From assembly GCF_026151205.1 (NCBI RefSeq), contig NC_087079.1:5165230-5229229 (forward strand): a DNA stretch of 64,000 nt, given 5' to 3'. Under the pieces are notes generated by a model. The model was not told where the DNA came from. It worked only from the letters and a program-made list of their open reading frames with translations, and searched no databases. A program made the translations under genes and the position numbers. This document shows positions 23,777-63,665 of the stretch, piece after piece (within the stretch, counting starts at the first letter, position 1; each line of letters opens with the position of its first letter). The DNA comes from Bolinopsis microptera. Lineage: Eukaryota > Ctenophora > Tentaculata > Lobata > Bolinopsidae.

Positions 23777-23987
23777 TAACGTTTCCGGATGATGATTAAT
23801 CACTCTACTGCATTAGACTGTCACTTGACTCTTTCAACCTGTTCTCTACTTGTATCACATCGTGACCCCCACGGTCGTTTCACTATAGTAGAGTTTCAAC
23901 GATACAGGGGGAGCTGCGCACTCGTGCGCGGCGGGTCATACAACGTATGACAATTCTCTACACTCTAGCTGGTCCTGAACGACTATT

Positions 23988-24043: not shown

Positions 24044-25388
24044 TCCTTAATAAAAGCATATTTTGGAATTCTTACCCTAACGATAAATTAGACTTACTTC
24101 CTTATAATTATATTTACGGTCATATCACGTGATCTAGACAGTGTTTCACCAATATCTCGTCAGGGGAGCTTTTTAACTTTATTTCGATCATAAGGTGTGA
24201 TTCAAAATCAGCGTCCAAAAATACATTGATTGAAGTTGGTTTTAACTCTCGGGGACCCTTTTCGAACAATCTCGAAGATCGACTGTAAAGTGATTCAGCA
24301 CGATCGAACGTTTCCTGTTTCCTCCCCAGGAGGAAAATTAGGGACATTGTAGATTTTGAGTTATCTCAAAATCTCCAGAAAAGTCTCATTTTGGGTCGAT
24401 CAAAAGTTTGTAAATTGAACTTGGCGGATTTCTGTACTCTGATTGGTTGAATTGTGGTACGTGTTAGCTGCTTGAACATTGGAATGTTTCACGCGTACAA
24501 TAAACCTTAGCGCAGGGCGCAAGCATGAACTCGCTGTGAAGACGCGATCACCTTTAGTGACACGGCCAGCCTGTAAGGTTTGCTGGGAAAGTGAGAACGC
24601 ATTCAGCCAGGAACTTTAAAGTTTCTAAACATATTTGGTTTGATAATTGAAGTGCATTCCCAAAATTTCAAGTTGGTTGTTCACAATTTAACCGAGTTTC
24701 AGTTATGACCATATTCAGATATTGCAGATACGTGATCTCGTTGACCATTGTTAATGGTCTGGCCCGGCGCGCGCTACTTCGTAGCACGTGCCATTTTGGC
24801 AATTTGGTAATCTAGCTAGGCACACTTGGGGCACAGTTGGGGCACACGTTTATACGTCACATCACTAAATATACGTCATATGATTTGACCCCTAATATTC
24901 GGGGGCCCCCCTTTGTCGGCCTCCCAACTAAACACACTTGGGCACAATTACTTACTTTACTTTACTTGGGGCACAGCTGGGGCAAAAAGTTACTTGGGGC
25001 ACAATCGGGGCAAAAAATGACTAAGGTAAACAATCCTTTGGTGTAATAATAAGTGATAAACAATGTATACGTAATTTTTAATTTAATTAAAATTTAACCT
25101 AATTCCTGAAAACCAATACAACCAATAAATTAACAAAATTATACATTCAACTATTCAGGATAATACTCTTCTCATCAGCTTAGGGATTTCGCTATTAAAG
25201 GATCTTCTCACAGATGAGTTCGATCAGGAGAGGTTGTGAGACTTTCGCCACATGAACTCACAGAGGGCTATTTCTAGGGCTTCAGAGTCTGCACGTGCCA
25301 CGGAGCATGTGTCTCTTTGCGTGAAACTTCACAGTTCACAGTGCCTACCTTCCTAAGATGCCAGCCCTTCGCTGCACTGCCTGCATTC
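24044..25388. other. Intergenic with GGGGCACA repeats
   Basis: No gene. 24822-25013 has six to seven scattered copies of 'cttggggcacag/ttggggcac'. 24180-24330 distantly resembles, inverted, the flank of the nested element at 22200-22320 ('tacattgat', 'gattcaaaatcagcgtcc'). The 3' end of the transporter gene abuts the right edge. Confidence 0.4.
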
Positions 25389-29850: not shown

Positions 29851-29889
29851 CATAGACACAGTGTTTCGTTCTATTTAGGACTCATCAGT

Positions 29890-36368: not shown

Positions 36369-37751
36369 TTATGTCTGTTGAGTTGGTAGTCCTGATGGGG
36401 TGACAGGCAGTATTGGCGTCTTTTTCGGGTTCCTGATGCGGTGACAGTTGCAAAGGAATTTGCCCAGTTCTTGCACATGGGCAGAATTCATGATAGCTCC
36501 GTATTCCTTGAGCAGCAAAAGACTCTTAAGGTTTTCCGACAGTGAGAGTCTCGCTGAGTGGTACATTGGACATTCGGTGAGGCAGGGTTCTTCATTTTCA
36601 ATGATTGTTCCTTCGAAAAAGGGGAAATATTCTAAGCCTTGAACGTTCTCCTTGTTGCAGCAGAATCTGCAGGCTCTCGTCCACGTTCCAGTTTCTTTTG
36701 TGTATCTCCCTCTCTCAATAAGAAGGTCATGGCTACTGGAGCGGATTTTTGCTATGTGCATGCGACATTGACTATTCTTTAGATTGAGATACTGCTCCTC
36801 TCCGAATACCTGTTTGATAGTGCAGTAAAATTGCATTTTCTTTTGGGATGCTAAATCTGTTCTCCAATCTTTTACAAAGTGATCGACCAAATTTCCATGT
36901 GCAGTTGAGGTCGTTCCTTCTGCTCTGCGTTGGTCGGATCGAGCGAATTTGGCCGCTTTGGATTCAGACTGAGCGATCGAGTTCCAGGTCTTATACCAAG
37001 AGAGGTTTAGATTCTTCTGCTCTTGGAATGTCTGATGTACAAGAAAGTTGACGCTGCTCACGTTGGGTGATGTCTGAGACAATCTGTCGAAGTATCTCAG
37101 GCATTGTGGTAGTACCGACAGGGCCCATGGTAACCTGCCCGTATCTCCGTAACAGAAGTTGTTGTTAGCTTTCTTGTGTAAGCCGAGCACCCACTTCAGC
37201 ATTTTCAGGTGTGTTGTCTCAAGTGCGTCCTTTGTTGCAGCTCTAGCAAGGTTCTGTCTTGAACCATCAGCGCAAGCCATCTCCTTTGCCATTTTTGTAC
37301 ACGGTAGCCATATCTGACAGGCATACGTAGCGACTGGTTTAACGAGGCTGTCTATAAGCTTGAGCATGGTTTTTGTTGTTAATGCTCGAGTGTCGACCAT
37401 GCGTCTGATCGAGAAAAATGCTCTTAGTGCTTTTTTCCTCAGTTCGTTCATGGCACCTTTAAATGAACCGTTGAGACTGAATTGAATGCCTAGATAGCAG
37501 TAAGATTTGGCCGATGAGATGTCCAGGTTCCCTAGTTTGAACCCGTAGGAGCACTTCAGCAAACGAGAGCTCGAGTTGAATACCATGATTTTGGTTTTGT
37601 CGATGTTAATTGACAGTTCCCATTTACTTGCAAATTCGTGCAGGCAATCAAGTTGTTTCTGCAGGATTTTGGCGTCGAGTGCCAAAAGTATCAGGTCGTC
37701 TGCCCACAGAAGATGGCTGACCGAGAAGCCGCTCAGTTCTGGAATTGACAA
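36369..37751 (-). pseudogene. LINE A, RT motif C to C-terminal zinc knuckle
   Basis: C-terminal half of the interrupted LINE A. It starts in the RT palm (SGFSVSHLLWADDLILL, with WADD in place of the usual Y/FADD). It continues through the thumb (YLGIQFSLNGSFKGAMNEL) and ends with a Cys/His cluster (CRFC ... CLTECPMYH). The reading frame is open for 460 codons, so the damage to LINE A is mainly the nested insertion upstream and a frameshift further 5'. The motif-C variant and the GTEQGHPMSPELF motif B set it apart from the CR1-like elements here. Clade uncertain. Confidence 0.8.
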
Positions 37752-37770
37752 GTCCTCAAGAGCTGCTAGT

Positions 37771-40545
37771 TTTTTTTTTATTGAAATCTTTCAAATCAGT
37801 CAATTACATACAAGTTTACACAATGAATTAGTTAAATATAATATTGTCCTCTAAGCATGGATTGTCAAAGTTGAAATTGTCTCGGACAAAATGTATGTAA
37901 CCAAAGGACCTGAGGGTCACCAAAACACAGATATTGAGTGCAAATGCAGCTCCTGCACAAGCATGGGCCCTTATAAAATTGTAATAAGTTACTTTAAACA
38001 AAATCACACACCAATTCAATCAATTCATAAAATATTGTGCTGTGAGATGAAATTGAGAAATATGTGAATGCAGACAGCAAGAATAGATAATTTTGAATAA
38101 ACTATTTTACGGATTTGTTTCTATTGAATAGTCAAGTTCAGAGTCCGAATCCACCGGGATAATTTTCCCCCACATGTAAGTGGAAAGTTTACTTTTAAAA
38201 TCAGTGATACTCTATATCTCACGGATATCTAGAGGAATGTGATTCCACTTAGTGTGGGTCCTATAGAAGAAATTCTTGGCAAAAGCGTTGGAGCTTGCTC
38301 GAGGTGAGATAGAGCTTACAAAACATAGAGAGTCCATGTGACTATTTCTGAGCCTTGAGTGGCCTTGAAATGGTTGCAAATATGAGGGTAAAGTGACAGG
38401 TATATGTTGCTTCACGATTTTAAAGAAGAAGATGAGATCCAAGAAGTCAAAGCGGTCTTCAATCGGCATAATCTTCAGCTGTCTGCATTTTTGAATGTAT
38501 GTGGATGGTGGATAACTCATATACTCCTCGTGAAGAATCCACTTAATAGCACGCTTTTGGAGGCCCTCCAGCTTGCTTATCTGGGATTTTGTGACTGGTC
38601 TCCATATAACCGAGCAATGCTCAAATAGGCTCCTCACTAAAGTGAGATACAGTACTCTACGACGATTTACGTCTTGGACAAAATAACAATTTCTTCTCGC
38701 CATGCCTAATTTTTGGTTTGCCTTAGAAAGGACTTTGGAGCACTGATCTTTCCAATCGAGATTTGATGTCACAATTACACCCAGATCCTTTTCATGATCA
38801 ACATAGTCAAGTGTGATTCTTCCCATGGAGTATACAAAGTTAAAGAGTGGTAGGACACTAAGGAGGGAAACTGTTTCGGATATCCTTCCTGCGACGGTGA
38901 GGACCTTACATTTGTCGGGATGAAATCTCATTTTATTAGAAAGTGACCAGTCATGGAGATAATCAATGTCCTTCTGCAGTCGCAGGATATCAGACTCCGA
39001 AACAATTTTACGCCAAATTTTAGTATCATCGGCATACAGTGACAGTTGTGTGCCTGGTGAAATCCCCACTGATATATCATCAATGAACATAATGAACAGC
39101 AATGGTCCCAAAATTGACCCTTGAGGTACACCAGACTGGGCGTTTCTCATAGAAGAAAACTTGCCACTTATCAAGACCTGTTGTTGCCTGTCTCTTAGAT
39201 AATCAGTGATGAATTTCAGTAGCCTCCCATCAATACCAAATTTGCTCTTTAGCTTAAATAATATAAGATCATGGTTAACCGAGTCAAATGCTTTGGCAAA
39301 ATCAAAGTAGACTACATCTGTTCTCATATTTTCATTCAGTGAGAGCGCTAGGCTGTCGCACAGTCCTACAAGATTAGTTGCACAAGATCTCTCAGCTCGG
39401 AAACCATGCTGTTTGTCATTGATCATGCCATTAGTAAGTGCCAATAACTCATCTCTTATTATGCGTTCAAGAACTTTTGTGATTAAGCATGTAAGAGAAA
39501 TTGGCCTATAATTTGAAACCTCATGTTTATCCCCTTTCTTGAATATTGGTACAATGTGCCCCAGTTTCCACTCCCTTGGTAGTGTCCCAATGTTGTAGCA
39601 TGAATGAAAAAGTATTGATATAGGGTATGCGAGCCCAACCGCACAGTTTTTCAAAAGTTTCCCATGGATACCATCAGGTCCATAAGCTTTATTAGCATTA
39701 ATATTGGAAAGGATTTTGCGAACCCTTCTGTGGTCAAATTCAATATCAAAGCGCCAATCATTAGAGTAATCTATATCTATGTCATAAGTTGATGCCTCAG
39801 AGAACTGCTCGAAGAAAAAGTCATTAAATAGGTTGGCCTGGTCTTCAGGGCAGTTGCGGACAGTGCCTTTGTGGCTTACAAACTCAGGGATCCGCTGACT
39901 AGCTGTCTTCGATTTGACATAGGACCAAAATTTTTTTGTTATTAAAGCACTATCATCAGATTCATTTAATGTTTCCCTCATTTTTTGAGCAACCACATTT
40001 TTGAAATTTTTCCTAGCAAGGGAGAATGCAATTTCAGCTCTATCACTTTTATGCCTTTCTTTATGTAATCTCACTTTCTTACGCCATGCATCATAACACT
40101 CCGAGTCAAACCATGGATCTTGGCCATCAGTCTTGACAGAGCATTTTTTAACAAATTTATCTGTGACATTAAAAAGTTTGTCCTTAAATTTTTTCCATCC
40201 AATTTCAGGTTCTGTGCCATTGAGCAATGCATCCCAATTCGTGTGTCGGAGTTCATGGTTTAGCCTCTCCCAGTTCACAGTCTTAAAGTTATAGCACATA
40301 CGCCTGACTGGCTTCTTCCTACCAACTTTAACGTTGATCTTAAAATTGATGGGGAAGTGGTCAGACTTGCAAGCACTATCTCTCTCACCTACCATTAGGT
40401 CATTAATATTTGACACAGAGTTTGTGAGCAATAGGTCAAGTGTTTTGCCTTTGCAGTGGGTAGGTGTTAACACACATTGTTGAAGGCCTAGATCAACAAA
40501 AGATTCAACAAAAGATTGCTCAATAGGACAGGAGCTAATGGAGAG
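37771..40545 (-). mobile_element. LINE B, CR1/L2-like, inserted into LINE A
   Basis: A 5'-truncated copy inserted in the minus orientation inside LINE A. The 3' end is a T-run at about 37771-37780 (poly-A on its own strand). The 5' edge falls where LINE A coding (KVYIYDLSI) switches to unrelated sequence. After its end LINE A resumes with EDLSIPELSG. The flanks share only a few bases (TAGC), so the target duplication is unclear. Confidence 0.8.
38212..40545 (-). CDS. LINE B ORF2: end of endonuclease plus full reverse transcriptase
   Basis: About 775 codons open without a stop, continuous with LINE A coding at the junction. The N-terminal part keeps the end of the apurinic endonuclease (GLQQCVLTPTHCKGKTLDLL, then SDHFPINF with the SDH catalytic motif). 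RT follows: VSNYRPISLTCLITKVLERI, motif A YFDFAKAFDSVNHD, motif B SGVPQGSILGPLLF, motif C LYADDTKIW, then the CR1/L2 thumb (DLGVIVTSNLDWKDQ) and the C-terminal AKNFFYRTHTKWNHIP. 5' truncation removed ORF1 and most of the endonuclease. The open frame implies a fairly recent insertion. Confidence 0.85.
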   Translation of the reverse strand, partial: LSISSCPIEQSFVESFVDLGLQQCVLTPTHCKGKTLDLLLTNSVSNINDLMVGERDSACKSDHFPINFKINVKVGRKKPVRRMCYNFKTVNWERLNHELRHTNWDALLNGTEPEIGWKKFKDKLFNVTDKFVKKCSVKTDGQDPWFDSECYDAWRKKVRLHKERHKSDRAEIAFSLARKNFKNVVAQKMRETLNESDDSALITKKFWSYVKSKTASQRIPEFVSHKGTVRNCPEDQANLFNDFFFEQFSEASTYDIDIDYSNDWRFDIEFDHRRVRKILSNINANKAYGPDGIHGKLLKNCAVGLAYPISILFHSCYNIGTLPREWKLGHIVPIFKKGDKHEVSNYRPISLTCLITKVLERIIRDELLALTNGMINDKQHGFRAERSCATNLVGLCDSLALSLNENMRTDVVYFDFAKAFDSVNHDLILFKLKSKFGIDGRLLKFITDYLRDRQQQVLISGKFSSMRNAQSGVPQGSILGPLLFIMFIDDISVGISPGTQLSLYADDTKIWRKIVSESDILRLQKDIDYLHDWSLSNKMRFHPDKCKVLTVAGRISETVSLLSVLPLFNFVYSMGRITLDYVDHEKDLGVIVTSNLDWKDQCSKVLSKANQKLGMARRNCYFVQDVNRRRVLYLTLVRSLFEHCSVIWRPVTKSQISKLEGLQKRAIKWILHEEYMSYPPSTYIQKCRQLKIMPIEDRFDFLDLIFFFKIVKQHIPVTLPSYLQPFQGHSRLRNSHMDSLCFVSSISPRASSNAFAKNFFYRTHTKWNHIPLDIREI

Positions 40546-41140
40546 GTCATAAATGTATACTTTGAAGAGCTCCGGCGACATTGGATGCCCCTGTTCGGTA
40601 CCAATGGTGACATCGATGGTGTCCGACAGCTTCTTGCTCAGTTTGATACGGGTAACTGAGTTGCTGTACATGTTCTGGAGGCAAGAGAAGAAGCTTTCTC
40701 CGATACCAAGTCTACTGAGTTTATACATGAGAGCCTCCCTGCAGACTGTGTCGAACGCCTTACGATAGTCCACGAAACAAGCGAATATTTTCTTCTTCAG
40801 CTTCTTTGTGTACTTCTCGATGATCGTTGTAAGGATATGGTCAGAGCACTGGGCACCAGCTCTGAATCCGAGTTGGTGAGGGAAGTCGGGACAGACGACT
40901 TTACGGAATTCGATCAGCCTATCAAGGAGGAGGGATGCAAAGAGTTTTCCAAGGCAACTTCCTACTGTGATTGCTCTATAGTTATCGGGGTTCTGCTTGT
41001 CCCCCTTTTTGTGTAGGGGGGGGGGGGGGGTAGTTATTGAGCAGTTCCAGGGGTAGATTCCTTGCGTTAGGCAACCATTGAATAGTTTCAGAAGGACTTT
41101 TTGGAGACCGAGTTTGGAGCTCTTGAGCATCTCGTTGGAG
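40546..41140 (-). pseudogene. LINE A, RT fingers and palm (5' side of the nested insertion)
   Basis: Frame containing NEMLKSSKLGLQKVLLKLF, then HKKGDKQNPDNYRAITVG, motif A ACFVDYRKAFDTVCREAL and motif B GTEQGHPMSPELFKVYIYD. It breaks at the LINE B insertion. A pure G15 run (41016-41030; C15 on the coding strand) encodes an odd run of prolines before HKKGD and looks like an expanded homopolymer. A one-base frameshift near 41150 separates this frame from the endonuclease frame. Confidence 0.8.
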
Positions 41141-42416
41141 ATAAGATGAAAGATCACATGAAACGCTTTTGTTATTCTGGAGCTTATTGGTGACTTTCTC
41201 CAGTTCTTGGATAGTAAACTCTGTGTTGAGTTTTTCAAGTTCGACTGATGGCTCGAGGTGGTACTCGGTTCCCTGTTCACCAGCTTCGTTGGTCGAAGTG
41301 TTCGTTTGTAGTCCACCGTGTGAGGGGTCCTTGCACTTTTGATTGTATAGGTCGTTGAAGAACTTGTGAAATGCGACCAGGTCATATATGTCGAATGTAT
41401 CAGGGTCCTTGCAAGCGGACGAGAGGTCTTTTAAAGCAGCCCAGTTGATGTTGTTGCTGTGGTTGATTTTCTCGTTAAGTTTGTATAGGTAAGCTCCCTT
41501 TCTAGCTCGTGTTTGTGCCCTGTATTCTTTCTTACGGAGGTAAAATCTTGCTCGGTTGGATTCCACGAGCATAGGATCGATGTGGGTGTTATTCTTGGCT
41601 CTTTCGTCTCTACAGACTAATCGTTTAGCATGCCTACAACTCCAATCAAACCATTTGTTTTTGTTAGTACTGGGCTTTCCACTTTTCTGGGTGGTAACTT
41701 GACTTGCCAGGTTAGTAAAGGTGGCAATCACAATTTCATTGAAACTGCGAATGTCGTCAGGGGAGGAAATATCAGTTTGAAGAAGAGAATCAACTTTTTC
41801 TTTGAATTGAGCGGTGTTCTGGGCTGACTTGAATTTTTCTGTGGTACCAAGTCCAGAGCAGGCATCTTTGGTCCACTTGAATGGCTTCGGGATCGATGCG
41901 AATTTGAGCTCCATTTCATTCGAGATGTCGCCAGCCATCACAATGTTCCTTATGTTAGTGGTTAAAGTGGTGGATATTGGTCTGTGGTCAGAATAAGGGG
42001 TGAGGTCACCAACTTTGAAGAACCTTGCCCGATGAAGAAGGCTGTGGGACACGCAAATGTAGTCGACCGTACTTACTCCATTTCTTTGAATGCAAGTTGG
42101 ACTGCCAAATATGTCCCCAATTGTCCTTCCGTTTAGGATTATCATTCCAGTTGTCTGGAGTAGCTCAATGAAGGGTTTGCCGTTGGAGTTGAGAATCCGA
42201 TCTTGGTTGTTTCTAGAAGCTACCTCAGTAGGAGATATAGAATGCTGGGGAGGATCGAGTTCAACTTGAAGGTCTCTAGACTCGCATGGTATAAGGAAGT
42301 CGTTCAATGTGCCGGTCCGCGCGTTCATGTCACCAAGTATGGCAGCATCTTCGGAGTCGGGGATATTTGATAGACACTCTTCTAAGTGCTCACAAGTGGT
42401 TGTATATTGTTCCATT
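41141..42416 (-). pseudogene. LINE A, endonuclease and linker, 5'-truncated
   Basis: Minus-strand frame beginning MEQYTTTCEHLEECL. It holds the C-terminal half of an apurinic-type endonuclease: GDMNARTG, STVDYICVS and YSDHRPISTTL, which carry the catalytic N, D and SDH residues. A basic linker follows, then ELEKVTNKLQNNKSVS, where the frame shifts by one base. The N-terminal half of the endonuclease is absent, so LINE A is 5'-truncated at about 42416. Confidence 0.8.
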
Positions 42417-47656: not shown

Positions 47657-47754
47657 TTGTAGGTTTATAACCTACCATGCAGGACGCGCGCCGAGTTGGA
47701 CTCGTCGACGGTCCTAATATTTGAAACAATATTCTACAAATATATCACCCGTTA
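47657..47754 (+). mobile_element. Triloop-hairpin cassette, copy 1
   Basis: A 98-bp copy bounded by TTGTAGG and CCCGTTA. Hairpins: GTAGGTT-TAT-AACCTAC, CGAGT-TGG-ACTCG, AATATT-TGAAAC-AATATT (lost one base), and a degraded fourth. Flanks GACTAGTTG and AAGTTTATG do not match, so this copy is old or recombined. It lies 93 bp after the Helitron. Confidence 0.8.
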
Positions 47755-48551
47755 AAGTTTATGAGGCAAGTTTTGCCATTAACAAAAATTGCGCCCGTTA
47801 ACCACTTTTTGGAGGTGAAGACCTCGTATTTTGACGTATTTCTTCAAACACAGCGTACTTTTTGATAGATTTTTAACTAATTTAGCAACACTGACTGAAA
47901 AGTAAAGGGCCCATAGTGATAAAATGGATAGTTTATATTTCCTTATGTTTCAAATTTCACAATGTCAAATACCTACATCTTTAATTTCTAGTAATTTCTA
48001 GTAACGGAATATCAGGTTTCTTATTGTGGAGATAACTGCTACCCAAGCAGCAGTTATCGTATCATCTTTACTGACCTGTACCTTTCTTTTGACTGCCCAC
48101 ATTCCGCAAGTATGATAATGGGAGCGGGGAGTGGTAAGGGGGTCAAAAATAGTTCAACTGTACAAACTAATACGCTGGAATATTTAATCACTATTATAAT
48201 GTTTGAATCACTATACAAACCACTCACAATCTATTTCCAAGAATAAAAACATTCGCAACATAAAACATACAAAGCGGATCAGTTATCCAATTTTATAAAA
48301 TATACATAGGATAGTCTTACATGTTAAAAAATAGTATTTGTAAAAAGTACTTGATCATCATTAAGTAAATTCTTAAATAAGGTCAAAACACTAATTAATA
48401 ACATGCATCGAAAAAGCTCACATATTTAACACGCCAATTTAGTTCCTCAGTTCGTCAGGTTTGCAGCAAACAATAACTCAAACGAGTAATAACAAATACT
48501 AACTCCTTAATTCATATGGAATCATTTCACCTCACGACTCAGCTTAATATT
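47755..48551. other. Intergenic, nothing recognised
   Basis: AT-rich sequence between the first two cassettes. I see no frame with a domain and no element ends. Confidence 0.4.
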
Positions 48552-48673
48552 GCTTCTCACTTGTAGGTTTATAACCTACCAAGAGGGGCGCCCGGTTTGG
48601 ACTCGTCGACGGTCCTATTCGACGGTAATATTTGAAACAAATATTTTATGAGTATCACCCGTTAGCTTCTCAC
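48552..48673 (+). mobile_element. Triloop-hairpin cassette, copy 2 with 9-bp duplication
   Basis: Cassette 48561-48664 (104 bp) flanked by identical GCTTCTCAC at 48552-48560 and 48665-48673. Hairpins GTAGGTT-TAT-AACCTAC and AATATTTG-AAA-CAAATATT are perfect. The second hairpin is weakened and 'tcgacggt' is duplicated. One duplication arm contains the stop codon of the DSL-type gene (TGA at 48670-48672 on the minus strand). Confidence 0.85.
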
Positions 48674-48724
48674 CACAGCCTCAATTCTGCGAAATCATAA
48701 GGTGGTTCATCTAGAACAGCTTTA

Positions 48725-49673
48725 GTTTGAAACTTAGTTGTAGTGAACGCTGAACTTAGTCGTACTGAACGTACGTTCCAATCATTTTGTAGTGAACGTT
48801 TGTGAACGTTAGTGAACGTTAGTCAATATTTTGATAATTTTTCCGATAGTTTTTAACTTCCAGACATCCTGATTCGTGTGCTGATCATATCCCTGATAAG
48901 CCGCGGGTGAACACAAAACCCTACTGAATGTAGGGGGGAATGGAGCTCGAGCCACCTTTTGTTGGCAAGACATCCTTGGAACCCTTCAGTCTCTCTAACA
49001 TAATAAACTGGGTGGCAAACCGAGTTTCCCCTGGTTTTAGCAAATTGACATGAGAATGGGTTCTAAACGTTTTTTCACATTTGTAACTATTTTGTTACAA
49101 TTCGACAATGTCTCCTTGGTCCAGCTCAACTTCCCGACATCCTCGGCAAGTAGATCGAACTGGTGGGTTACACAGCATGATCCTATGATGTGTTCATAAT
49201 CAGCTTCGATTAAGCGTCGTAGAGATTTATTGACATTTGGATTGTCTGTTACAACGTGGCAAATCCTGTCGGCGCCAATTTCTTCAATTTTGGCTTTTAC
49301 AATCTCATACTGACCATTCGCAGTTTTCTCAACCCCTGTAGCATTAACTGCGTCATGAAAAATAATGTCCTGCCTTTGCACGAGGGTGAAGTTAACGAGA
49401 GGGTGAGAGGATAGATCCTTCCAACCATCAGTTGTTAGGGTACATGGGAATTGCTCAGTGATCAGCCGTTTCTGGAAAACGTCCACCTGCCGTCTTAGAG
49501 AATCTCGTTCATCTGTCAGCATCTTTGCCGGATAATTGGGCTATGTCCGGCATTTTAATTTCATAATAGCAATTAACGTTCCTTATGTTCCGAACGTTAA
49601 AATCTTTAGCAAACGCGTTCACAAACTATTTTTAGTGAACGTTCCGTACGTTCACTACAACTAAGGTTTGAAA
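48725..49673 (-). mobile_element. hAT element inside the DSL-type gene
   Basis: Element 48733-49665 (933 bp) with 17-bp terminal inverted repeats CTTAGTTGTAGTGAACG and perfect 8-bp duplications GTTTGAAA (48725-48732 and 49666-49673), the hAT hallmark. Subterminal 'tgaacgt' motifs recur near both ends. Removing the element and one duplication restores the reading frame of the host tail across the site. Confidence 0.9.
49037..49522 (-). pseudogene. hAT transposase fragment (DUF659-type)
   Basis: 161 codons matching the central part of hAT transposases: CTLTTDGWKDLSSHPLVNFT (first catalytic D in TTDGW), then ICHVVTDNPNVNKSL (second D in VTDN), and HIIGSCCVTHQFDLLAEDVG. The N-terminal BED finger, the third catalytic residue and the C-terminal dimerisation region are missing. 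The element cannot move by itself. Confidence 0.85.
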
Positions 49674-50525
49674 CGCAACATCAGTGTAGAGATGATCACT
49701 GTCTGGTGAGGTTCCATCAATAGTGTAGTCAATGTAAGTAGCATCTTCAGAGGTTACTCGGACAACAACATCGTCTTGCTTGTGTTCAGTAGTGGGGATC
49801 TGTTCAGGTGTGTTGGGAACTGCAGTATTAACGTAAACTACATTTTCCTGCTTCCTGCGTGAGTGTAGAATATAAATGCACCCAAAATCAATATCATGAA
49901 GAGGACAGCTCCTGATGCTATCCAGACTCCTATCTGTTGTGCTGTCTTACAATAGGTTGTACAATTCTCTCCGTAGTGGTATGCACTTCTTTCCTTCTCT
50001 TTTGCTATTTTAACACCCACCGAAGTCATCTGTCTCTCCTTCCTCGCATATCTTCTCTTCTGTTGTCAGATTACAAGTACTGGTTCACAGTGTGTGTCAC
50101 ATTTCTGTTCTGGAAAGTAGCTATCGTTGTAGACTTTTTCTCCTGGTCCACTACCGAATGTGGAGCACTCCTCTCCAAAATGGTTCGGTTCAGAGTGCTC
50201 ACAGTCCTGTTTACTATAAGACACTCTTTATCTCCTTGTTCTGTGTGTATTTCTCTGGATCAGGTGGAGACTGGACAGTGCAGATGTTCCTAATATGGAG
50301 TAGGGTTTATGTGTTCATGTGGGGGTTATGAGTAATATGATGTAGTGTTTCGTGTAGGAGTATGAATTATCCGCATTAACACAGCATCTTGTTCTGTTCA
50401 TGATGCTGATTCCGGGAAGCATGCTCTTTACGCGAGCATCACATTCTGCACTGAGATATTGTTCAATTATAATTTAGAAGCTGTTGCGACGAGTGGTTAT
50501 AAAATTTACATTATACAGTAATTAT

Positions 50526-50653
50526 GTAGCTTGTTGTTCTGATTCATAGCTTGTTGTTCTGATTCATAGCTTGTTGTTCTGATCACATAGCTTGTTGTTC
50601 TGATCTCATAGCTTGTTGTTCTGATCTTTTATAGCTTGTTGTTCTGATCTTTA
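50526..50653 (+). promoter_or_regulatory. Six tandem monomers directly upstream of a LINE ORF1
   Basis: Six copies of TAGCTTGTTGTTCTGAT with 3- to 6-base spacers (TCA, CACA, CTCA, CTTTTA), ending 3 bp before the ORF1 start. The position matches the monomer arrays that serve as internal promoters in some LINEs. The promoter role is inference. Confidence 0.65.
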
Positions 50654-50655
50654 CG

Positions 50656-51525
50656 ATGGCAGATTTGGACTTGGAAAGTATCAATTACATGTGGAATGAG
50701 ATGTTCACCTGGAGCAAAGAGACTCTGAAGAAATTTGGCAAGCCTTACGGAAAGTTAAAGGACATTGCGGACGCTAAGAACTTCAACAGACTGAATAAGC
50801 CGGAGATTGTCGATGTGTGTGGTCGATCTTTTGAGTATACGAACTATCTTATGGATACCGTTGAAGCGTATAAGAATGTGTTGACCAGACTTCAGGGTCA
50901 GTTAATTGAGAAGCAAGAGCAGGTTATCAGTGTTCAGGCCGAGCTATCAGCTTGCAAGACTGAGCAACTTGAAGCGATGAAGAAAACTGTGTCAAGTTCA
51001 GTTGCTGATTCAGTGAAAGCGGAGTTCCAATCTTACAGCTCAGTCGTTCAAAGTTTGCCAGCACAGTCTCCAGTAATCAGCCCGGAAGCATTGACGTCTG
51101 TAGTCAAGACTATTGTTGCAGAGGAGGACCGCAGCAGGAACCTTCTTATCTTCGGCCTGCCTGAGGAAAAAGAAGAGAAGCTCGAATCTCAAGTCAGTGA
51201 AGTTTTGGAAACTATTGGCATAAAGCCAAAAGTAGAGGCTCAGAGAATAGGAAAAAAGAAAACGGTTGACTCAAGGCGACCAGTTAAAGTTATCACCTCA
51301 AACTCGCTCATCGTTAATCAGATTCTGAGGAATGCCAGGAACCTGCGGCAGACTGAGAAGTTTAAGACAGTTTTCTTGAGCCCTGATCGGTCTGTCGAAC
51401 AGAGGAAGCTCCGGAAAGATCTGGTACAGGACATGAAGAAGCGGGCACTTGCAGAACCGACCAAAAAGTTTTACATAAAGGACGGGCAAATTTATAATTA
51501 TTGTGCAGATGAGAGCAACGGTTGA
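50656..51525 (+). CDS. LINE ORF1 protein (coiled coil plus RRM-like region)
   Basis: An intact 289-residue frame. The N-terminal 75 residues are mixed helical. A coiled coil follows at about 75-115 (LQGQLIEKQEQVISVQAELS). Then a Ser-rich linker, and the conserved block RSRNLLIFGLPEEKEE with IGIKPKVEAQRIGKK, and PVKVITSNSLIVNQILRNA, as in ORF1 proteins of CR1/L2-type LINEs that use an RRM-like fold. The basic end KDLVQDMKKRALAEPTKKF resembles the RNA-binding C-terminus. Role: RNA chaperone in the LINE particle. No RT or endonuclease follows (51529 onward), so it is an ORF1-only 5' piece or a captured gene. Confidence 0.8.
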   Translation: MADLDLESINYMWNEMFTWSKETLKKFGKPYGKLKDIADAKNFNRLNKPEIVDVCGRSFEYTNYLMDTVEAYKNVLTRLQGQLIEKQEQVISVQAELSACKTEQLEAMKKTVSSSVADSVKAEFQSYSSVVQSLPAQSPVISPEALTSVVKTIVAEEDRSRNLLIFGLPEEKEEKLESQVSEVLETIGIKPKVEAQRIGKKKTVDSRRPVKVITSNSLIVNQILRNARNLRQTEKFKTVFLSPDRSVEQRKLRKDLVQDMKKRALAEPTKKFYIKDGQIYNYCADESNG

Positions 51526-51528
51526 CAA

Positions 51529-52639
51529 CTTTTTTTGAGTGTGTGTTTCGTGTGCTGTTTTGAGATGTTTTGGACCATGTTTGTGAGGGACATATTGGTA
51601 GCTGTAGTTATTTTCTATACAAGACTGAATAGTCTTCAGGCTTTAGCTGAGCTTTAATTTCCGACGCAGTATTGTTGAGCCACTAGTCCATGATGGGGAA
51701 TATAAACAATATATTTAACTCTTAATGGTCAAAGCTACTTTTAATTTCATGAATCATACAGATTTTAAAGTACGCTGGTACGATTTTTATCTTATTAAAT
51801 TGCTGTTCAATATCTATTTTAGTAAACATTAACTGGGGTAGTAAAACCCAGTTCCCAATCATGTTATCATACAAGTTATTTAATTTTTTACTAAATTAAA
51901 CAATTAATAAAAAACCGGACTCCATTTATGAAACACTCTGTAAGTAAAATTTCTTTAAAAAAATTCTCCTTTACTGAACTAAACACGACTATAATACTGT
52001 TAAGAGAAGCAGCTGGAAAACCAGAAATTTTAGATGCATTTTTTATTAGTTCAAAATTCCACGTGGTGGGATGAAAAGGCAGCTGTAAAACTGCAACAAA
52101 GAACACAGTGCGAAGACGAAATGTGAAATCCACACCCTAGTATCGCCTACGTTACAATGTTTGGTTCTAGATAACCGTGCAGATTCGTACTTTGAGTAGC
52201 GCACTGTTGGGGGTAAGGAGTGTCGTGTTACTGTGGAATAGCGAATCTTCTTTTAAAGCTGTATCATTCAGTAACATTGTCTTATGAGATGTATCACTAT
52301 AAAATGTTCGAACATGTCTTTATGGATTTATTATTAAATACAAGGTCAAACTCTAACAAATATAATACCCGTTTTAATACCCTATGTTTCAATGTACAAC
52401 AAGTTGCAGCTGAATACTAACGAACTGGTTTTGTAGTTTGAGGATCTGACTTCATCGCTAAACTGCTGATGAATATAAGGGTACAGTATTCCTTTTCTAT
52501 AACGCGCCCCTATTATATATACAACGTGGTTTTTTGGGCAAAATGTTTGATCACGTTTATGTTCGGTGGAAATCTTCATTTTGATATGCTTATCAGTTTT
52601 GTGACGAAACATAATACTCTGCTCAAATATAAGAAAACG
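51529..52639. other. Intergenic, no ORF2 found
   Basis: Begins with the LINE 3' flank (T-run at 51532) and then AT-rich sequence. None of the short frames shows endonuclease or RT motifs. Confidence 0.5.
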
Positions 52640-52925
52640 TAAATATGGCTAGACTCTGCTCGCTCCAGGTATAGAGAATAAAAGGAACATAGCTCTTGGT
52701 CCCCAGTCCATGAGCCAGGCTATTTCAACACATAATCTTATGGGAACCTATGCATGGTAGATCACAGCAAGGCCGACCAAGACAAAGCTACTTGTCTATG
52801 TTACTGAAGGAAGTTGGGACAAACTGTAAAGAGGAACTGCGAACCCTGATGCGGGACAGGGATATATGGAGGAGATTATCTGGCGTAGATCGGACTTAGT
52901 TCCGACATAGTAGTAGTAGTAGTAT
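52640..52925 (+). mobile_element. RTE-clade-like LINE 3' end with (TAG)n tail
   Basis: A frame ending GRSQQGRPRQSYLSMLLKEV, then RTLMRDRDIWRRLSGVDRT and a stop, matches the typical C-terminus of RTE-like RTs (GRP...QDRDxWR). A short 3' UTR and a TAG microsatellite (about 52907-52923) follow, as expected for RTE elements. Only the last 70 or so codons survive. Confidence 0.7.
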
Positions 52926-53894
52926 TTCAACACATGAAAATGGCACACAGTGATTTGGATTGCATAAGATTGTAAGTTGTCTCCACATCTAACCCATCTC
53001 AAGTCTTGCTAATGCTATGTAGTCCAAATGAAGTGTCATATGCGATAAAATGTTTAGAAATAAATGTCTTTTAGTCAATGATCAAACCATTTATTATTCA
53101 TTTTGAACTTAAATCTTAATTGCTTCGAATTAGATCACGCATACACAATAGCTGCGATTGATATCTGTTTGGCAGTTGCAGTTGTTTTATTGTGATGGCG
53201 TTGTTCTATTTGGTTTTGAACAATAAGTTTGAAGCATTATTTATTAATGTTTTCGTTACATGTTTTAATTGTGCCAGTGCACGAGCTTGCAGCATGAGCG
53301 GCGCACAGTCTAATAGATTTTAAAAAGACGGCATCAAATTAAGTTTTAGAAAATAATTCTATTGTATACCAAAATCTTGTCTTTTGATAAATCTACCTAT
53401 CTACTATATCACAATTATACTCATAATTTCGTTGTTCAGTTGTCTTGCTTGGCTTCAGTACGTGAATCGTGTAGAAAATATTTCACTCGATCCTGTTCCC
53501 GTATATTGTATTTTCGTAAGTTAAGTTTACCTATCAGAGCTTTTCATAACAGATTAAAACCAGATCTTTATTTTACGGTGCCACGGTGTGGACTTGCTAC
53601 ACCCGGTCAAAACGAAATATAATACATTTACAATAAAATCATACCATTACAATTAACAAAATAAATTTAATCACAGAATTATAATTGTTGTCTGCATCAT
53701 GCAACTCATTAGTATTAACTCTATTTAAAATGAACAGTCCTTCGGTTGTAAAGCTGTCTCATTAACGTGATACCGGCTGAACAGAACCGACCCTCGGTTT
53801 CAGTTCCTTGTTTAACACTGCCGTCTCGAACCAAAGCTGGACAATTCTCACGAATTCTGGACAAAAAGTTCGAAGTGGAAAAATGTTTGAAAAA
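52926..53894. other. Intergenic, nothing certain
   Basis: A plus-strand frame at 53362-53622 has weak LINE C-terminus character (FHNRLKPDLYF), but it lacks diagnostic motifs. Nothing else recognised. Confidence 0.35.
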
Positions 53895-54017
53895 AATTCA
53901 ACGGACTTGAACTTGGACGGACCTTAAATGAACGGACTTTAATTGAACGGACATTAAGATAAACGTTAGGGCCTCCGGCGTTCAATTAATGTCCGTCCAA
54001 ATAAGGTCCGATAAGGT
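53895..54017. mobile_element. MITE-like repeat, best-preserved copy
   Basis: GAACTTGGACGGACCTTAAA at the left and TTAATGTCCGTCCAAATAAG, then GTCCGATAAGGT, at the right form a long imperfect foldback with a loop near GGGCCTCCGG. Same family as 29708-29850. Confidence 0.65.
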
Positions 54018-54259
54018 AATCAAAAGCTATTATTTCTCACGATTTACCCACGACAGTTTGTCCAGCACCAAATTATTAGAATCAATGAACCGAATTATTA
54101 GAAATTAGAATCAATGAACATAGTTCATGGCTTTTGTTCATAAATTCCTTTGGTGCTGGATGTTAATAAATACAATTATCTGTATAGACTATAGGTACTA
54201 TATCATAAAAGTGAAACATTCGAAATATACTGACAAACGGACATGGAATTAAAAAACTA

Positions 54260-54895
54260 TTTAAATACCAACCATCGATGCTGCCATCATCGAAGCTTGT
54301 AAATATCTGTCAACTTATACCAACACACACATCATCATATGGTCAGACAGTCTCTCCTCTATTCAAGCTATATCCACACCCTCAACGAGGAGTAGAACTA
54401 CTAGAGACTGTTACGACACCATCGGCCTTAACAAAACGCCTACATACCATTCGCAAATCAGACACAAGTGCTTGTCCTAAATGCGGCGACGAAGAGGAGA
54501 CTGTCTCACACTTTCTCGGACAGTGCCCGGCTATTGCCCAAATAATTTTCGGGACTACCACCTCTCTGTCAATGATATATTCGACAACCAACACAACACC
54601 ACCATCGTCAACTTTGCAAACCACACTAAACGCTTAATGGTGCCAGAGGAGTTGGACCAGACCGGTGTAACATAGCGACTACTCAAACGTCGTCTTAGTT
54701 CGCCTCTCTCTTCCACACTCAGCCACGTTCATCTATAAAACACCCCACAACACTTACCATCATCCTTGATTACACATCTTGATTCCACCGGCATCCTCCC
54801 ACAAGGCTGTCATACCCCAGAGGTAGGCAAAGCATCCATATGCTATCCTCTCGTGGGCCAACCAGGCCCAGCCTCTTTAAAAAAAATCGATGCTT
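54260..54895 (+). pseudogene. LINE with RNase H and zinc finger, internally deleted
   Basis: IEACKYLSTYTNTHIIIWSD plus SLSSIQAI is the RNase H region with its D. It is followed in a shifted frame by a C-terminal finger, SACPKCGDEEETVSHFLGQC. The RNase H C-terminal half is missing here but present in the other copy at 58731. The 3' UTR ends with the family hairpin and an A8 run near 54886-54893. Typical of I/R1/Jockey-group elements with RNase H. Confidence 0.7.
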
Positions 54896-54950
54896 TTGTT
54901 CAAGTTCGTGTCGAACTAATTTCCAGGTACCTGGTGGCTGAGCGTACCTC

Positions 54951-55502
54951 AAGGACAAAAGAAAATCACGATTATGTAGGCCAAAAATCGCGATGAAAAT
55001 CTTGAAAATCGCGGCAAAAGATAATGTATTTGCAGAGCAAAGTTAGATGTCATAGATTCGTTAACTAGCTCGTTAGTCTAGTTAGATTAGCTATAAACAC
55101 TTAACTGAGCAGAGCTTGCTTTTAGATCAGCCCTTCCAGACGATCTCAAAAGTTCCTCCCAGATCGCCAGACGTTAGGGCTTCCAGCGTTCAATTAATGT
55201 CCGTCCAAATAAGGTCCGATAAAGTATGTATATATTAGTATTTATACTACTTTATGTAACTTATTATATAACTGTATTAGTTATATAATAATTATATAAC
55301 TGTATTACTATTAGTGCCGGTAATTAATACCGTACGAGCAGCAAATCATTGGTTATTGTAATCCTCTGTTCTGAAGCACCAGTACAACACTCTTTAACTA
55401 CTTTATCACCAACTCAGCTAAACATGACAAGTTAGAAATAACTCTACGGAATAAGGACAAAAGAAAATCGCGATTATTTAGGCCAAAAATCGCGGCGCCG
55501 CA
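54951..55502. repeat. Chimeric repeat region, includes a copy of the GPCR 5' leader
   Basis: 54951-55000 and 55453-55502 share GGACAAAAGAAAATC and GGCCAAAAATCGCG. 55167-55230 is a half copy of the AAGGTCCGATAAGGT MITE. 55319-55455 is about 90% identical to 60608-60744, the sequence immediately upstream of the GPCR start codon. The match ends at the base where the GPCR has ATG and this copy has ACA. Confidence 0.75.
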
Positions 55503-56286
55503 ACAAGCCAAACTAAGAAAAATCTGGGACAAGTAGTCCTATATGGCATATTATCATTTTGGTTATCAGATTGAGGTTTAAATCATTTCATCTTTAATTC
55601 TATCGAGTAGTGGCAAGATTTTGCAGCTCAGTGGCTTCTTGTGGGCGACTTTAGGGCCTGTCGTGATATCATGGATCGCTTAGGTTCCACCAGGATCTGG
55701 TAGTCCTCATAATTCTGCGGCCTCTATGTTTCGTCATCTCGCACAACTCTTTAAGAATCTTGTGGATTTGGCATGTGAAAATTTGCAGCCTTCCAGACAT
55801 TGATTGGGTTAACGAGGTGTCGTACGTCACCTCAAGATCGGGTGACAGGGGGCTGACCAGGCCAGAACCCAATTGATTGGGTCTGAGGTCACGTGATTAT
55901 GAGCCTGAGGTCACGTGACTATGACGTCACCAGACCTTCCTCTCCGTTTCCCGCTCATTGGACCAGGTGAGCTTGCATGCATGTGAATGTGGGTGTAAGT
56001 ATAGCTGTACTGTAGTTTATACCTAATTAAACCCCTATAGAAACCGAAAATTTATTTTCTGGCAGAAAGCTAGAAATTTACCAAAATATCGTCATTGTTT
56101 TAAATTTATTTTGATGACCATTCCTGACCTAAAATCGCACGAGAAATCGATTAAACTTGGTTTCAGAACTCAACAATGCTTCCTTATGCCTCAAAATCCA
56201 TGTTTTATCAATACAATCAACATCTCGATTCTGTAGTTAAACTTATTACTTAACGGATTCAAGTATAGTTACGCGGTAGACAAACT

Positions 56287-56381
56287 AAAACAAAATTGTA
56301 GGTTTATAACCTGCCAGGACGTGCGCCGAGTTAAACTCGTCGAAGGTAATATTTTACGAGTATCACCCGTTAAAAACAAAA
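56287..56381 (+). mobile_element. Triloop-hairpin cassette, copy 3 with 9-bp duplication
   Basis: Cassette 56296-56372 (77 bp, missing part of hairpin 3) flanked by identical AAAACAAAA at 56287-56295 and 56373-56381. Hairpin 2 reads CGAGT-TAA-ACTCG, a changed loop with an intact stem. It lies at the inner edge of the left arm of the foldback element. Confidence 0.85.
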
Positions 56382-57801
56382 CACCAGTTTAATTGTCCTT
56401 TTGTCTGAACCATATGGTTAAGTGTAAGCTGTATACAATACGTCAAAAAATCATATCAACGAATCGTATCAAAGTCCATCATCAGTTAGTAACAGAGTAG
56501 AGATCAGAGCAGAACGAAGGAACATGCTTGCTTGCGGGAATCTTTTCTGAAATATTGTCGACAGGTTAAAATCAATTGCATTTCCGTTACTTGGGTGTGG
56601 GATATAAAGCATTATATGGTTGTTAAAAGCCTACATAATACTCTTCACTTAATATGGCTAATGTTTAGCATTATTTATAATCCATTATAATGATGTGATC
56701 TGAAATTAAGTTAAGCTACAGACGTTTTTTGTGACAATACAAGAAATAATGGTTGAGCTCCTACTTGTGAGCCACTTAGGAAATACAGTATATCTGATTT
56801 ATTGTACCTTCACTTCTTCTGCTTTCTCGTTTGCTGTCTGTGCTCTGCGACAGCAATTTGTTGCCCAGACTTCCTATCCTCCCCTACCACCTTCTTACCA
56901 CAGGTTGAAATAAGCGCCACTTGCCTCTCAACAGCTTGGTTGTTGTTAACAAATACTGTTTTGAGAGGCATTCTTATATATGATATAATAGCGGCTCTCG
57001 TCAGACCACGTAGCAAGGGGGGTAGGGTTACCCGAGCATACTCCTTCTTTGCTGAGGATAATTGTGTTATTTTTTATTTACATCATGTACTGAGACTAAA
57101 GAAACTGTAACCTAACTCAAACACGTTATTTCTAGTAGTAGTATAATAATATGTTGAATGAATGATTGATTAAGCTGATCGTTAACATATGACACATATT
57201 ATGCAAAAAAGTATCTTTGATAATAACAATTATTACCGACTCCCGTTTTAAACCACCATCCACAAGAATCTTCTTTGTAGATGGGGAGCTCAGTGAACTT
57301 CCTTGCGGTCATGTCCAAGTATGGCTTGTAAAAAACCCTCACACGTCGGGAGGGTGGCACCTTCTCCAGTCAAGGATTTTCAGACAATCGGCCACACCCT
57401 CCCTCCGCACATCTTGTTCGCACATAATACTTCCAGATTATTTCTCGAATAAATTCATAAGTAACCTTATAAAATAAATCATTATATTAATATAAAAAGT
57501 AGTTGTCTTTTCCATTTATACTGTACCAATCGACGACTCACTTTTAACATTTAGCCTCACCAGCGCAACTTGAATTTTATTAGAAATTGTTAACAAAATA
57601 TTTTACGAAAGTAGATCTGCTGGATTTGCAAAGTGCTAGTTATAACCAAAGATGGTCACCTTTTTCATTCATGACATTCCCAGGTAGTAGGTTTACGAAA
57701 ATTGAAATAACAGACACTTAAAAAAAGCTGCCCAACTGAAATTGCACAAATTGCAATACAACTGCCACATAACACAAGGTTTTTATACATATAAGTTTAT
57801 T

Positions 57802-57891
57802 TAACGGGTGATACTCGTAAAATATTTGTTCCAAATATTACCTTCGACGAGTTTAACTCGGCGCACGTCCTGGTAGGTTATAAACGTACAA
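57802..57891 (-). mobile_element. Triloop-hairpin cassette, copy 4
   Basis: A 90-bp minus-strand copy at the inner edge of the right arm. Hairpins CGAGT-TAA-ACTCG and AATATTTG-GAA-CAAATATT are intact; hairpin 1 has one mismatch. The outer flank TTTTGTTTT (57892-57900) is the complement of the copy-3 duplication. The inner flank AAGTTTATT is unrelated, so arm homology stops exactly at the cassette end. Confidence 0.85.
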
Positions 57892-58714
57892 TTTTGTTTT
57901 AGTTTGTCTACCGCGTAACTATACTTGAATCCGTTAAGTAATAAGTTTAACTACAGGATCGAGATGTTGATTGTATAATCGATAAAACATGGATTTTGAG
58001 GCATAAGGAAGCATTGTTGAGTTCTGAAACCAAGTTTAATCGATTTCTCGTGCGATTTTAGGTCAGGAATGGTCATCAAAATAAATTTAAAACAATGACG
58101 ATATTTTGGTAAATTTCTAGCTTTCTGCCAGAAAATAAATTTTCGGTTTCTATAGGGGTTTAATTAGGTATAAACTACAGTACAGCTATACTTACACCCA
58201 CATTCACATGCATGCAAGCTCACCTGGTCCAATGAGCGGGAAACGGAGAGGAAGGTCTGGTGACGTCATAGTCACGTGACCTCAGGCTCATAATCACGTG
58301 ACCTCAGACCCAATCAATTGGGTTCTGGCCTGGTCAGCCCCCTGTCACCCGATCTTGAGGTGACGTACGACACCTCGTTAACCCAATCAATGTCTGGAAG
58401 GCTGCAAATTTTCACATGCCAAATCCACAAGATTCTTAAAGAGTTGTGCGAGATGACGAAACATAGAGGCCGCAGAATTATGAGGACTACCAGATCCTGG
58501 TGGAACCTAAGCGATCCATGATATCACGACAGGCCCTAGGGCGACTTAGAGGTGGCAGCATGTTTCAAGGATTGTGGCATCCTTTGTATAAGTTTTTCAC
58601 TATCACTATGTTTAGTGTAAAATAGAGGCGGCATCCTAGACTAGTCCTCCCGGGGCGTACCGATGATAAACTTTGCCTGCTCACGAGTCGTTCAGCGACC
58701 AAAACTGACTAACA

Positions 58715-60745: not shown

Positions 60746-61900
60746 ATGTTTCCACCAATCTCCTCGTCACCGCTCAACTCGCGATTGCAGAGACCACCTT
60801 GGATATCATCTTCACCGATATCATCTTTAAAAATACCTGATTCGGATCATGGAGGTGACAAATTCTTACAAATAATTAATGATGTTCCTCAGAATCATTG
60901 GAGTCCTATACCTAGTCCGTTCAAATTTAATTTGATAATCAGCAAGGTAATCTCAATTCCAAGCTATATTACCCTGATAATTTTTAGCGTTTTAACATTT
61001 TACATAATCTTTAAACACTTTAAGCGACTGCTAAACATCTATTTGACTGTTCTGTTTTACACCGTGTCTCAACTGCTACTCCTTCTGGTTCTCTCCATAT
61101 CCTGGATTTCTGAGCTGACTAGATCAGAGGAGACCGAGGATCAGGAAACTGAGTTGGGGTGTCAAATAAAACAAGGTTTCCAAACATTTTGTTTGCTTTT
61201 ACCAGGGTACTGCATTTTCATCATTTCAGCCGTCAGGAGCATATTTGTTACATTCCCATTGTCTTATTTCGACTACATAAAGAGAAGAAACCAGCTGATC
61301 GCATTTGCACTCGCTGTTTTGATTTGCGGACTAATAGCGGCTGCTCCTAGCCTTGGACTTTGCAGCGCAGTTGTCAATTTGTCTCGGCTACGTAATGGTG
61401 AGGTTATGACGTACTGCAGTTTTGATGAAAAAGGTAAAGCTGAATGTAAAATATTCTATAGTATTGTTGCTACAGTAGGCATTATTCTTCCTTTCATCGG
61501 CACAGTTTGCTTGTACATCTACATGTGCAAGCTGGCTGCTGGCGCAAAAGAGATCCACCGTTCGCTTACCAAAGCTTCATTGTCGATGTCTACCTCCACC
61601 AACACCTCTGGAGGGAATCTATCACAGGAAGAGCGAAGAACTATACCCTGGTCCATAATAGCGATCCTTGGTGTGAGTCTCGCTACCACGCTACCCTGGG
61701 CTGGGATGATCGTTTACACTGTGGAGATAACTGAAATGCTTGTCGAGAAAGGTGATCTGTCGGTTGTTTTTGATGTGTTCTATTCGGTGCTACAAGTACT
61801 GATAGGTTGCTCACTTTTAGTTTATCTACTTACAACAAACTCGTTGAGAAAGAAAGTGTTTCAAATTTTTAGAAAAATATACTTTTGTGCCGCTGAATGA
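60746..61900 (+). CDS. Rhodopsin-family G-protein-coupled receptor, single exon
   Basis: 384 residues, uninterrupted. The N-terminal 60 residues are Ser/Pro-rich and outside the membrane. Seven helices lie at about 64-89, 97-122, 143-170, 184-208, 236-262, 301-326 and 340-363. C139 before helix 3 and C224 in loop 2 are placed for the conserved disulfide. The DRY motif is reduced to a lone Arg (AVRS, R164). Helix 6 keeps the proline (TTLPWAG, P317). NPxxY is replaced by GCSLLVY. Helix 8 follows (NSLRKKVFQIFRK). Loop 3 is Ser/Thr-rich (SLSMSTSTNTSGG). It acts at the plasma membrane; ligand unknown. Single-exon receptors of this kind are often in expanded invertebrate families. The ATG is supported by the end of leader homology at that base. 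Confidence 0.85.
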   Translation: MFPPISSSPLNSRLQRPPWISSSPISSLKIPDSDHGGDKFLQIINDVPQNHWSPIPSPFKFNLIISKVISIPSYITLIIFSVLTFYIIFKHFKRLLNIYLTVLFYTVSQLLLLLVLSISWISELTRSEETEDQETELGCQIKQGFQTFCLLLPGYCIFIISAVRSIFVTFPLSYFDYIKRRNQLIAFALAVLICGLIAAAPSLGLCSAVVNLSRLRNGEVMTYCSFDEKGKAECKIFYSIVATVGIILPFIGTVCLYIYMCKLAAGAKEIHRSLTKASLSMSTSTNTSGGNLSQEERRTIPWSIIAILGVSLATTLPWAGMIVYTVEITEMLVEKGDLSVVFDVFYSVLQVLIGCSLLVYLLTTNSLRKKVFQIFRKIYFCAAE

Positions 61901-63476: not shown

Positions 63477-63665
63477 ATGGCCAAACACAATTTAATAACA
63501 TTTAGCTTGATCTTACTGGGCGGCGCTCAGCCTGTCATTCCGCTGAATCTTTATTATGTTTATGAACATAATAGCCCGGGGTCCCCAGGCTATCCAAACT
63601 ATCAAATAAATGTAAAAAATGAACCTCCATTTGAAAAAAATGAACGCGAATATTTTTCGAGTTGA
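63477..63665 (+). CDS. Short secreted-protein-like ORF, unrecognised
   Basis: 62 codons. The first 20 residues (MAKHNLITFSLILLGGAQPV) have the form of a signal peptide. The rest is Tyr/Asn/Pro-rich with SPGSPGYPNYQ, faintly like the SPGYP segment of CUB domains. TTTATAA lies about 100 bp upstream. It may be a first exon or a chance frame; I would not assign a function. Confidence 0.25.
   Translation: MAKHNLITFSLILLGGAQPVIPLNLYYVYEHNSPGSPGYPNYQINVKNEPPFEKNEREYFSS

Follow-up and report, generated by a model that had tools for sequence, protein, structure and literature searches.

Short mobile elements of Bolinopsis microptera, probably non-autonomous DNA transposons, share a triloop palindrome at each end

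The stretch of DNA analysed here (the window) comprises 64,000 nucleotides of the genome of the ctenophore Bolinopsis microptera (assembly GCF_026151205.1, contig NC_087079.1, positions 5,165,230 to 5,229,229). It carries four copies of a cassette of about 100 bp, termed F1, in which an initial annotation, made from the letters of the window, had noticed a series of triloop hairpins. The cassette is probably a non-autonomous class II (DNA) transposon and represents one of at least five multi-copy families, with a palindrome at the termini as the likely recognition feature. It is close to certain that these elements are mobile DNA inserted with an 8-9-bp stagger, and it is likely that the terminal palindrome is what is recognised; the case for its being read as a hairpin is fair but unproven.

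The genome searched amounts to 264.65 Mb in 232 contigs, of which 13 appear to be chromosome-sized. It contains 2,175 exact 5' ends of F1 (752 with the loop TAT) and 2,129 exact 3' ends (20-base tail), while the reversed-pattern controls for the two ends gave 0 matches genome-wide. As the head pattern has a degenerate base B, which includes C, it covers nearly all heads. The commonest length of F1 is 92-93 bp. The base following CCCGTTA, with which the initial annotation had closed the cassette, is A in 97 of the 108 full copies, a proportion that is if anything too low, because 20 of the searched loci were chosen for a missing terminal A; the matching base of the left flank is A in 44 of the 108. 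Genome-wide, another base follows the 17-base 3' pattern at 97 places, as against the 2,129 exact 20-base tails. The sequence CCCGTTA is thus present as described, but the true 3' end lies one base further on, giving the terminus CCCGTTAA, and the target duplication is most often 8 bp long.

A repeat with at most one mismatch flanks 78 of the 108 copies having both ends: an 8-bp repeat after the terminal A in 56 (the ninth base also matches in 28 of these), a 9-bp repeat after the A in 16, and a repeat preceded by extra bases in six; the other 30 have no repeat. When exact repeats were counted in 107 copies, 47 had 8 bp, 13 had 9 bp, one had 7 bp and 46 had none, and an exact repeat of at least 6 bp was found in 56% of 73 copies compared with 1.6% with shuffled flanks. 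The mobility claimed for the cassette is supported: thousands of exact ends occur genome-wide, and 8-9-bp duplications are common among the copies read, in contrast to an outcome of hits devoid of flanking repeats. At some 3' ends (L022, L037, L089, L092, L094, L095, L105 and L106) extra A/T bases such as TATTAA were seen, and several of these extended ends are then followed by a clean 8-9-bp duplication. A preference for insertion into palindromes, an idea that came from a few nested insertions, was rejected, as at least 6 pairs were present at 3 of 83 sites and at 13 of 498 control positions.

Further families were recognised by the same architecture. F2 was reached via a related tail, and its head, TTGACCATT-GTT-AATGGTC, is a triloop palindrome with a stem unlike that of F1. 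F3, F4, F5 and the single element F6 emerged when 363 kb (the window together with 299 kb of loci, of which some overlap) were scanned de novo for an 8-bp repeat and for a palindrome behind TT at both ends. All six share a common plan, in which each end consists of TT followed by a palindrome with two 7-base arms and a 3-base spacer (7-3-7, a triloop hairpin), and the element is flanked by an 8-9-bp duplication. F3 has 1,938 exact heads genome-wide, with 0 matches in the reversed-pattern control. An exact 8- or 9-bp repeat flanks 100 of the 188 F1-F5 elements with both ends, and a 7-bp one flanks a single element; no exact repeat of 6, 10 or 11 bp occurred, and 87 elements are without an exact repeat of 6-11 bp. 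A target duplication of fixed length is thus common to F1-F5, as in miniature inverted-repeat transposable elements (MITEs), which the present elements also resemble in small size, lack of coding sequence and high copy number. Unlike MITEs, F1-F6 have no terminal inverted repeats between their ends, beyond a weak likeness, a 7-3-7 palindrome being formed within each end instead; the initial annotation was right that conventional terminal inverted repeats are missing. Exchange of ends between families was considered and rejected: 64 of 65 exact-repeat pairs fall within one family, and the exception represents two adjacent elements sharing a repeat. An apparent mixed F2/F1b pair proved to be an ordinary F2 element misassigned by a loose pattern. 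At one locus (L020, 541-880) F3 and an F4-like element lie side by side inside an F5 end, and the 8-mer GGGACCTC occurs there three times.

That the spacer has a fixed length of 3 bases was seen in scans in which its length was varied. A strict two-ended scan, which counted Watson-Crick pairs only and allowed one mismatch in the repeat, returned 61 elements at loop 3, one at loop 4 (fitting none of the families found here) and 0 at loops 0, 1, 2 and 5-9. Replacement of the leading TT by six other dinucleotides gave 0 for five of them and 1 for GG. When the lead was set to TTR and the repeat had to be exact, loop 3 yielded 55 elements, loops 1, 2, 4 and 5 yielded 0, and loop 6 yielded one. Pairing holds at 71 of the 84 stem cells in the 12 ends of the six families, whereas shuffled arms give a mean of 32.2 (sd 4.9), with 0 of 20,000 shuffles reaching 71, and other spacers allow the same ends to pair at 9-25 cells. 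Because pairing was required for the discovery of F3-F6, it is the spacer controls that constitute the fair test. Six of the seven pair positions in the stem are occupied by at least three Watson-Crick types. As the 7-3-7 plan recurs in families whose stems differ, the case for a hairpin is stronger than from F1 alone, and the weight that had been placed on triloop hairpins is borne out beyond the four window copies. As for the substitutions preserving stems that would be looked for in such a case, none is detectable in F1, and the clear two-sided change within a family is confined to the first stem pair of F4, for which, among 22 distinct heads, 11 have G-C and 7 have A-T.

Several observations weigh against this interpretation. 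The two ends of one element are rather more alike than ends of different families: their arms agree at 2-4 of 7 positions (mean 3.5, compared with 2.4 between families) and their first 19 nt at 8-14 positions (mean 10.7, compared with 8.4), with F2 coming closest to an inverted repeat (14 of 19); a worn or short inverted repeat between the ends is therefore possible. Covariation within F1 was tested and gave no signal, since F1 stems hardly vary. The shuffled-arm test is biased for F3-F6, which were found by asking for pairing, the spacer controls count elements of few families, and the F1 counts in the scans are inflated, because the scanned DNA was chosen around F1. In five of the 12 ends, just 5 of 7 pairs are Watson-Crick. 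Folding scores of nine elements include two strong ones (z, -4.4 and -3.0) and three middling ones, and four are weaker than -1.3. Among 100 exact F1 heads in the first 10 Mb of the contig designated C1, 58 have an exact tail within 400 bp, and the partner of the remaining heads is mutated, missing or displaced. Finally, no element encoding the enzyme was found, and no enzyme could be linked to the elements.

A palindrome can also serve as a duplex binding site, the hairpin never being formed. According to this alternative, which is a serious one even if we hold it to be somewhat less than probable, the palindromes are operator-like sites for a dimeric transposase. A spacer of invariably 3 bases would be apt for two half-sites with a defined separation, some conservation of the centre is seen across the 12 ends (G at position 10 in 10, T at position 12 in 8), and the folding scores are modest. 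On the other hand, a protein reading the duplex should keep its half-site, and the half-sites vary both between the two ends of an element (2 to 4 of 7 identical) and between families, while the pairing persists.

On the favoured reading, an enzyme encoded elsewhere would cut the target with an 8-9-base stagger and join the element at its TT...AA termini, and gap repair at the staggered cut would yield the 8-9-bp duplication. The arms within one end would have to match, while those of the two ends need not. The F1-F6 elements are short and non-coding, and are presumably moved in trans; the enzyme may be a DDE-type transposase that recognises the palindrome when it is extruded into a hairpin or cruciform. 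To our knowledge, the cut-and-paste transposases described so far recognise matching inverted repeats by their sequence. Tentatively, the elements might represent a group of eukaryotic DNA transposons not described before: their transposase would read a terminal triloop hairpin by shape, the two ends of an element could have unrelated stems, and integration would still involve an 8-9-bp staggered cut. No description of this terminal plan was found in the open-licence literature as judged by titles and abstract openings, and transpos-, MITE and hairpin are absent from the main text of a comb jelly genome paper (PMC11797021). Ends that conserve pairing but not sequence across several families, of which two were each counted at about 2,000 exact ends, would suggest a eukaryotic transposase reading DNA shape, and annotation based on inverted repeats between ends could miss such elements.

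With respect to the source of the transposase, domains of MULE, hAT and Merlin type are all present in the genome and are candidates. Mobilisation by a hAT or a Merlin (IS1595-like) transposase is possible, if doubtful. The genome has at least 150 hAT matches (150 of 365 candidates scored) and 58 Merlin matches; among the matches listed, no Merlin or hAT match comes closer than 3 kb to any of 11 large stretches bounded by F1 ends (described below). The target duplication of hAT elements is 8 bp, and their short inverted repeats read YARNG; an 8-bp duplication is common here, but the termini TTGTA/TTAAC do not fit YARNG, which fails to match both element ends. PMC8101967 reports 8- or 9-bp duplications for Merlin and terminal repeats that can be highly imperfect, and the mixture of 8- and 9-bp duplications seen here fits that description. 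The same source gives a conserved GG at Merlin termini, whereas the present elements start with TT, and the word hairpin is absent from its main text.

The initial annotation had proposed that the cassette borrows a Mutator-like (MULE) enzyme, which we now consider unlikely. There are 88 MULE domain matches in the genome, and in three MULE families the duplications, judged by eye, measure about 9 bp. Non-TIR MULEs (VANDAL and others) are described in PMC6446971 as having 8-11-bp duplications and, in some cases, as being devoid of terminal inverted repeats, much like the elements studied here. Unlike them, F1-F6 have TT...AA termini with triloop palindromes, and no coding relative was found. 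One of the three families, designated C, has the start GATTGTAGGAC and the end GTCCGTTCACC, having TTGTAGG and CCGTT in common with the cassette; on shuffling, the likeness of the head has p of about 0.05 and that of the tail is not significant (p 0.37), and family C was rejected as the cassette source. The ends of the three MULE families start with G and form at most 4 of 7 pairs in the 7-3-7 frame, lacking TT + 7-3-7, and MULE family A differs from the cassette in its inverted repeats, which are about 0.6 kb long. None of the MULE matches listed comes closer than 3 kb to any of the 11 large stretches. An autonomous MULE partner near unusual tails was likewise rejected after comparison of 88 matches with 89 tails, the nearest being 28 kb away; these proximity tests covered the 11 large stretches and the 89 unusual tails, against roughly 2,000 short copies in all. 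At the loci L069-L088 at least three MULE families were seen, their duplications measuring about 9 bp; inner repeats occur in family C, and an N-terminal stretch of it resembles, by eye, a FLYWCH zinc finger.

A longer relative with the same ends, which the initial annotation had proposed to look for, does exist, but the two examples sampled inside are non-coding. The first two long F1-ended elements were located on C1, and their inner junction sequences occur at 21 and 22 places genome-wide (at most one mismatch). By eye, these form 11 junction pairs in matching orientation, 3.9-17.6 kb apart, with 10 and 11 places left unpaired; the resulting stretches include C1:2524532-2533035 and C1:9269584-9279072, plus nine more. 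All 11 are flanked by 8-9-bp repeats (an 8-bp match after the terminal A in nine, a 9-bp match in two, one of which is 8/9). The lengths of nine may include later insertions, since these were read at their ends only. A MITE would share its ends with an autonomous partner; F1 shares its ends with these 11 stretches, and no coding capacity was seen in the one read whole. This element (8.5 kb) contains four tandem copies of about 0.92 kb and no ORF of at least 85 codons (longest run, 77), and its best match to a MULE protein has an E-value of 0.54; no Pfam scan was made. A similar look was found in 5 kb of the second element, with a 0.32-kb array and a longest stop-free run of 85 aa. The larger relatives thus carry F1 ends rather than enclosing the cassette within conventional ones. 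Three other long head-tail candidates (0.9, 1.2 and 3.8 kb) were discarded, as their flanks do not match by eye. At L109 (C1:3598186 onward) the body of the large element is reversed relative to the F1 head; with one F1 head joined to the opposite end of the body, the body can lie in either orientation.

Other known systems show partial resemblance. Small mobile-looking hairpin pieces are described, in the parts of PMC2800124 consulted, as mitochondrial double hairpin or repetitive hairpin-forming elements, which resemble the present ones, but with loops of 7 in two described types and no fixed target duplications. Helitrons are without target duplication, whereas F1 elements have it. In IS200/IS605 ends and integron attC sites the hairpin structure, not the stem sequence, is recognised, and F1-F6 would work alike; those systems are bacterial, use single-strand chemistry and make no target duplications of fixed length. 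HUH-type single-strand transposition, IS200/IS605- or Replitron-like, would account for hairpins that stand at both ends and differ in sequence, but fixed-length target duplications are not expected from its chemistry, and we regard it as very improbable. RNA-mediated, SINE-like retroposition, to which a short structured cassette without long inverted repeats and the minority of 3' ends in which additional A/T bases (for example TATTAA) precede the duplication might point, is the most improbable, as SINEs have variable duplications, 5' truncation and an A-rich or simple-repeat tail, whereas the duplication length is fixed at 8-9 where present, F1 heads and tails are equally frequent, indicating no 5' truncation, and F1 3' ends have no A-tail, just as the initial annotation had observed.

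All four window copies reported by the initial annotation were found, with the ends it described, and they are listed below together with members of other families. The 9-bp flanks that it had seen are present at copies 2 and 3, although a strict 9 bp does not hold for the family, in which 8 bp is usual and 9 bp less frequent. The 5' terminal palindromes at 56298-56314 and 57873-57889 (minus) each have one mismatch relative to GTAGGTT-TAT-AACCTAC. The inner hairpins, in turn, are not kept in every copy as had been thought: judged by eye, copy 1 has an altered hairpin 3 and a weak hairpin 4, copy 2 has a broken hairpin 2 and likewise a weak hairpin 4, and copy 3 has no hairpin 3. Single-strand folding compared with dinucleotide shuffles gave z of -4.4 for copy 1 and of -1.8, -0.8 and -1.1 for copies 2, 3 and 4, so that it is clearly better than shuffles for copy 1 only.

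Table 1. Elements and associated features in the window
Feature	Position	Strand	Remarks
F3 element	23850..23953	-	head TTGTCATAC-GTT-GTATGAC; perfect 8-bp duplication TTCTCTAC on both sides
F2 head TTGACCATT-GTT-AATGGTCTGG	24741..24762	+	no F2 tail found within the window
F1 cassette copy 1	47657..47755	+	no recognisable target duplication
5' terminal palindrome GTAGGTT-TAT-AACCTAC, copy 1	47659..47675	+	identical at 48563-48579 (copy 2)
Copy 2 left target duplication GCTTCTCAC	48552..48560	+	
F1 cassette copy 2	48561..48664	+	GCTTCTCAC on either side; terminal A changed to G, or 9-bp duplication
Copy 2 right target duplication GCTTCTCAC	48665..48673	+	
Inverted duplication, left arm	55652..56354	.	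found as two abutting arms; the duplication as a whole includes copies 3 and 4
F1 cassette copy 3	56296..56373	+	flanks AAAACAAAA; without hairpin 3
3' terminal palindrome TACGAGT-ATC-ACCCGTT, copy 3	56355..56371	+	
F1 cassette copy 4	57801..57891	-	within inverted duplicate of copy 3 and flank; without target duplication
Inverted duplication, right arm	57833..58538	.	
Degenerate F5 element, TTACTGGGC.. end and partner	63513..63592	.	no clear duplication

Copy 4 is not an independent insertion, as it shares with copy 3 an inverted duplication of about 0.7 kb that ends at the cassette. This duplication (55652-56373 / 57801-58538) stops at the cassette 3' terminus and there abuts new sequence without target duplication; one-ended or alternative transposition is a possible origin.

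The window also contains several features outside these families. A tandem array of units about 21 bp long (TTGTTGTTCTGATC..CATAGC) occupies 50531-50649, immediately ahead of a 289-aa ORF for which there was no Pfam match. Several reverse-transcriptase and endonuclease ORFs of the non-LTR retrotransposon type are located at 34201-42415, a type I hammerhead ribozyme was detected at 29849-29894 on the minus strand (Rfam RF00163, 40.6 bits), and a 384-aa ORF at 60746-61900 encodes a rhodopsin-type G protein-coupled receptor (7tm_1).

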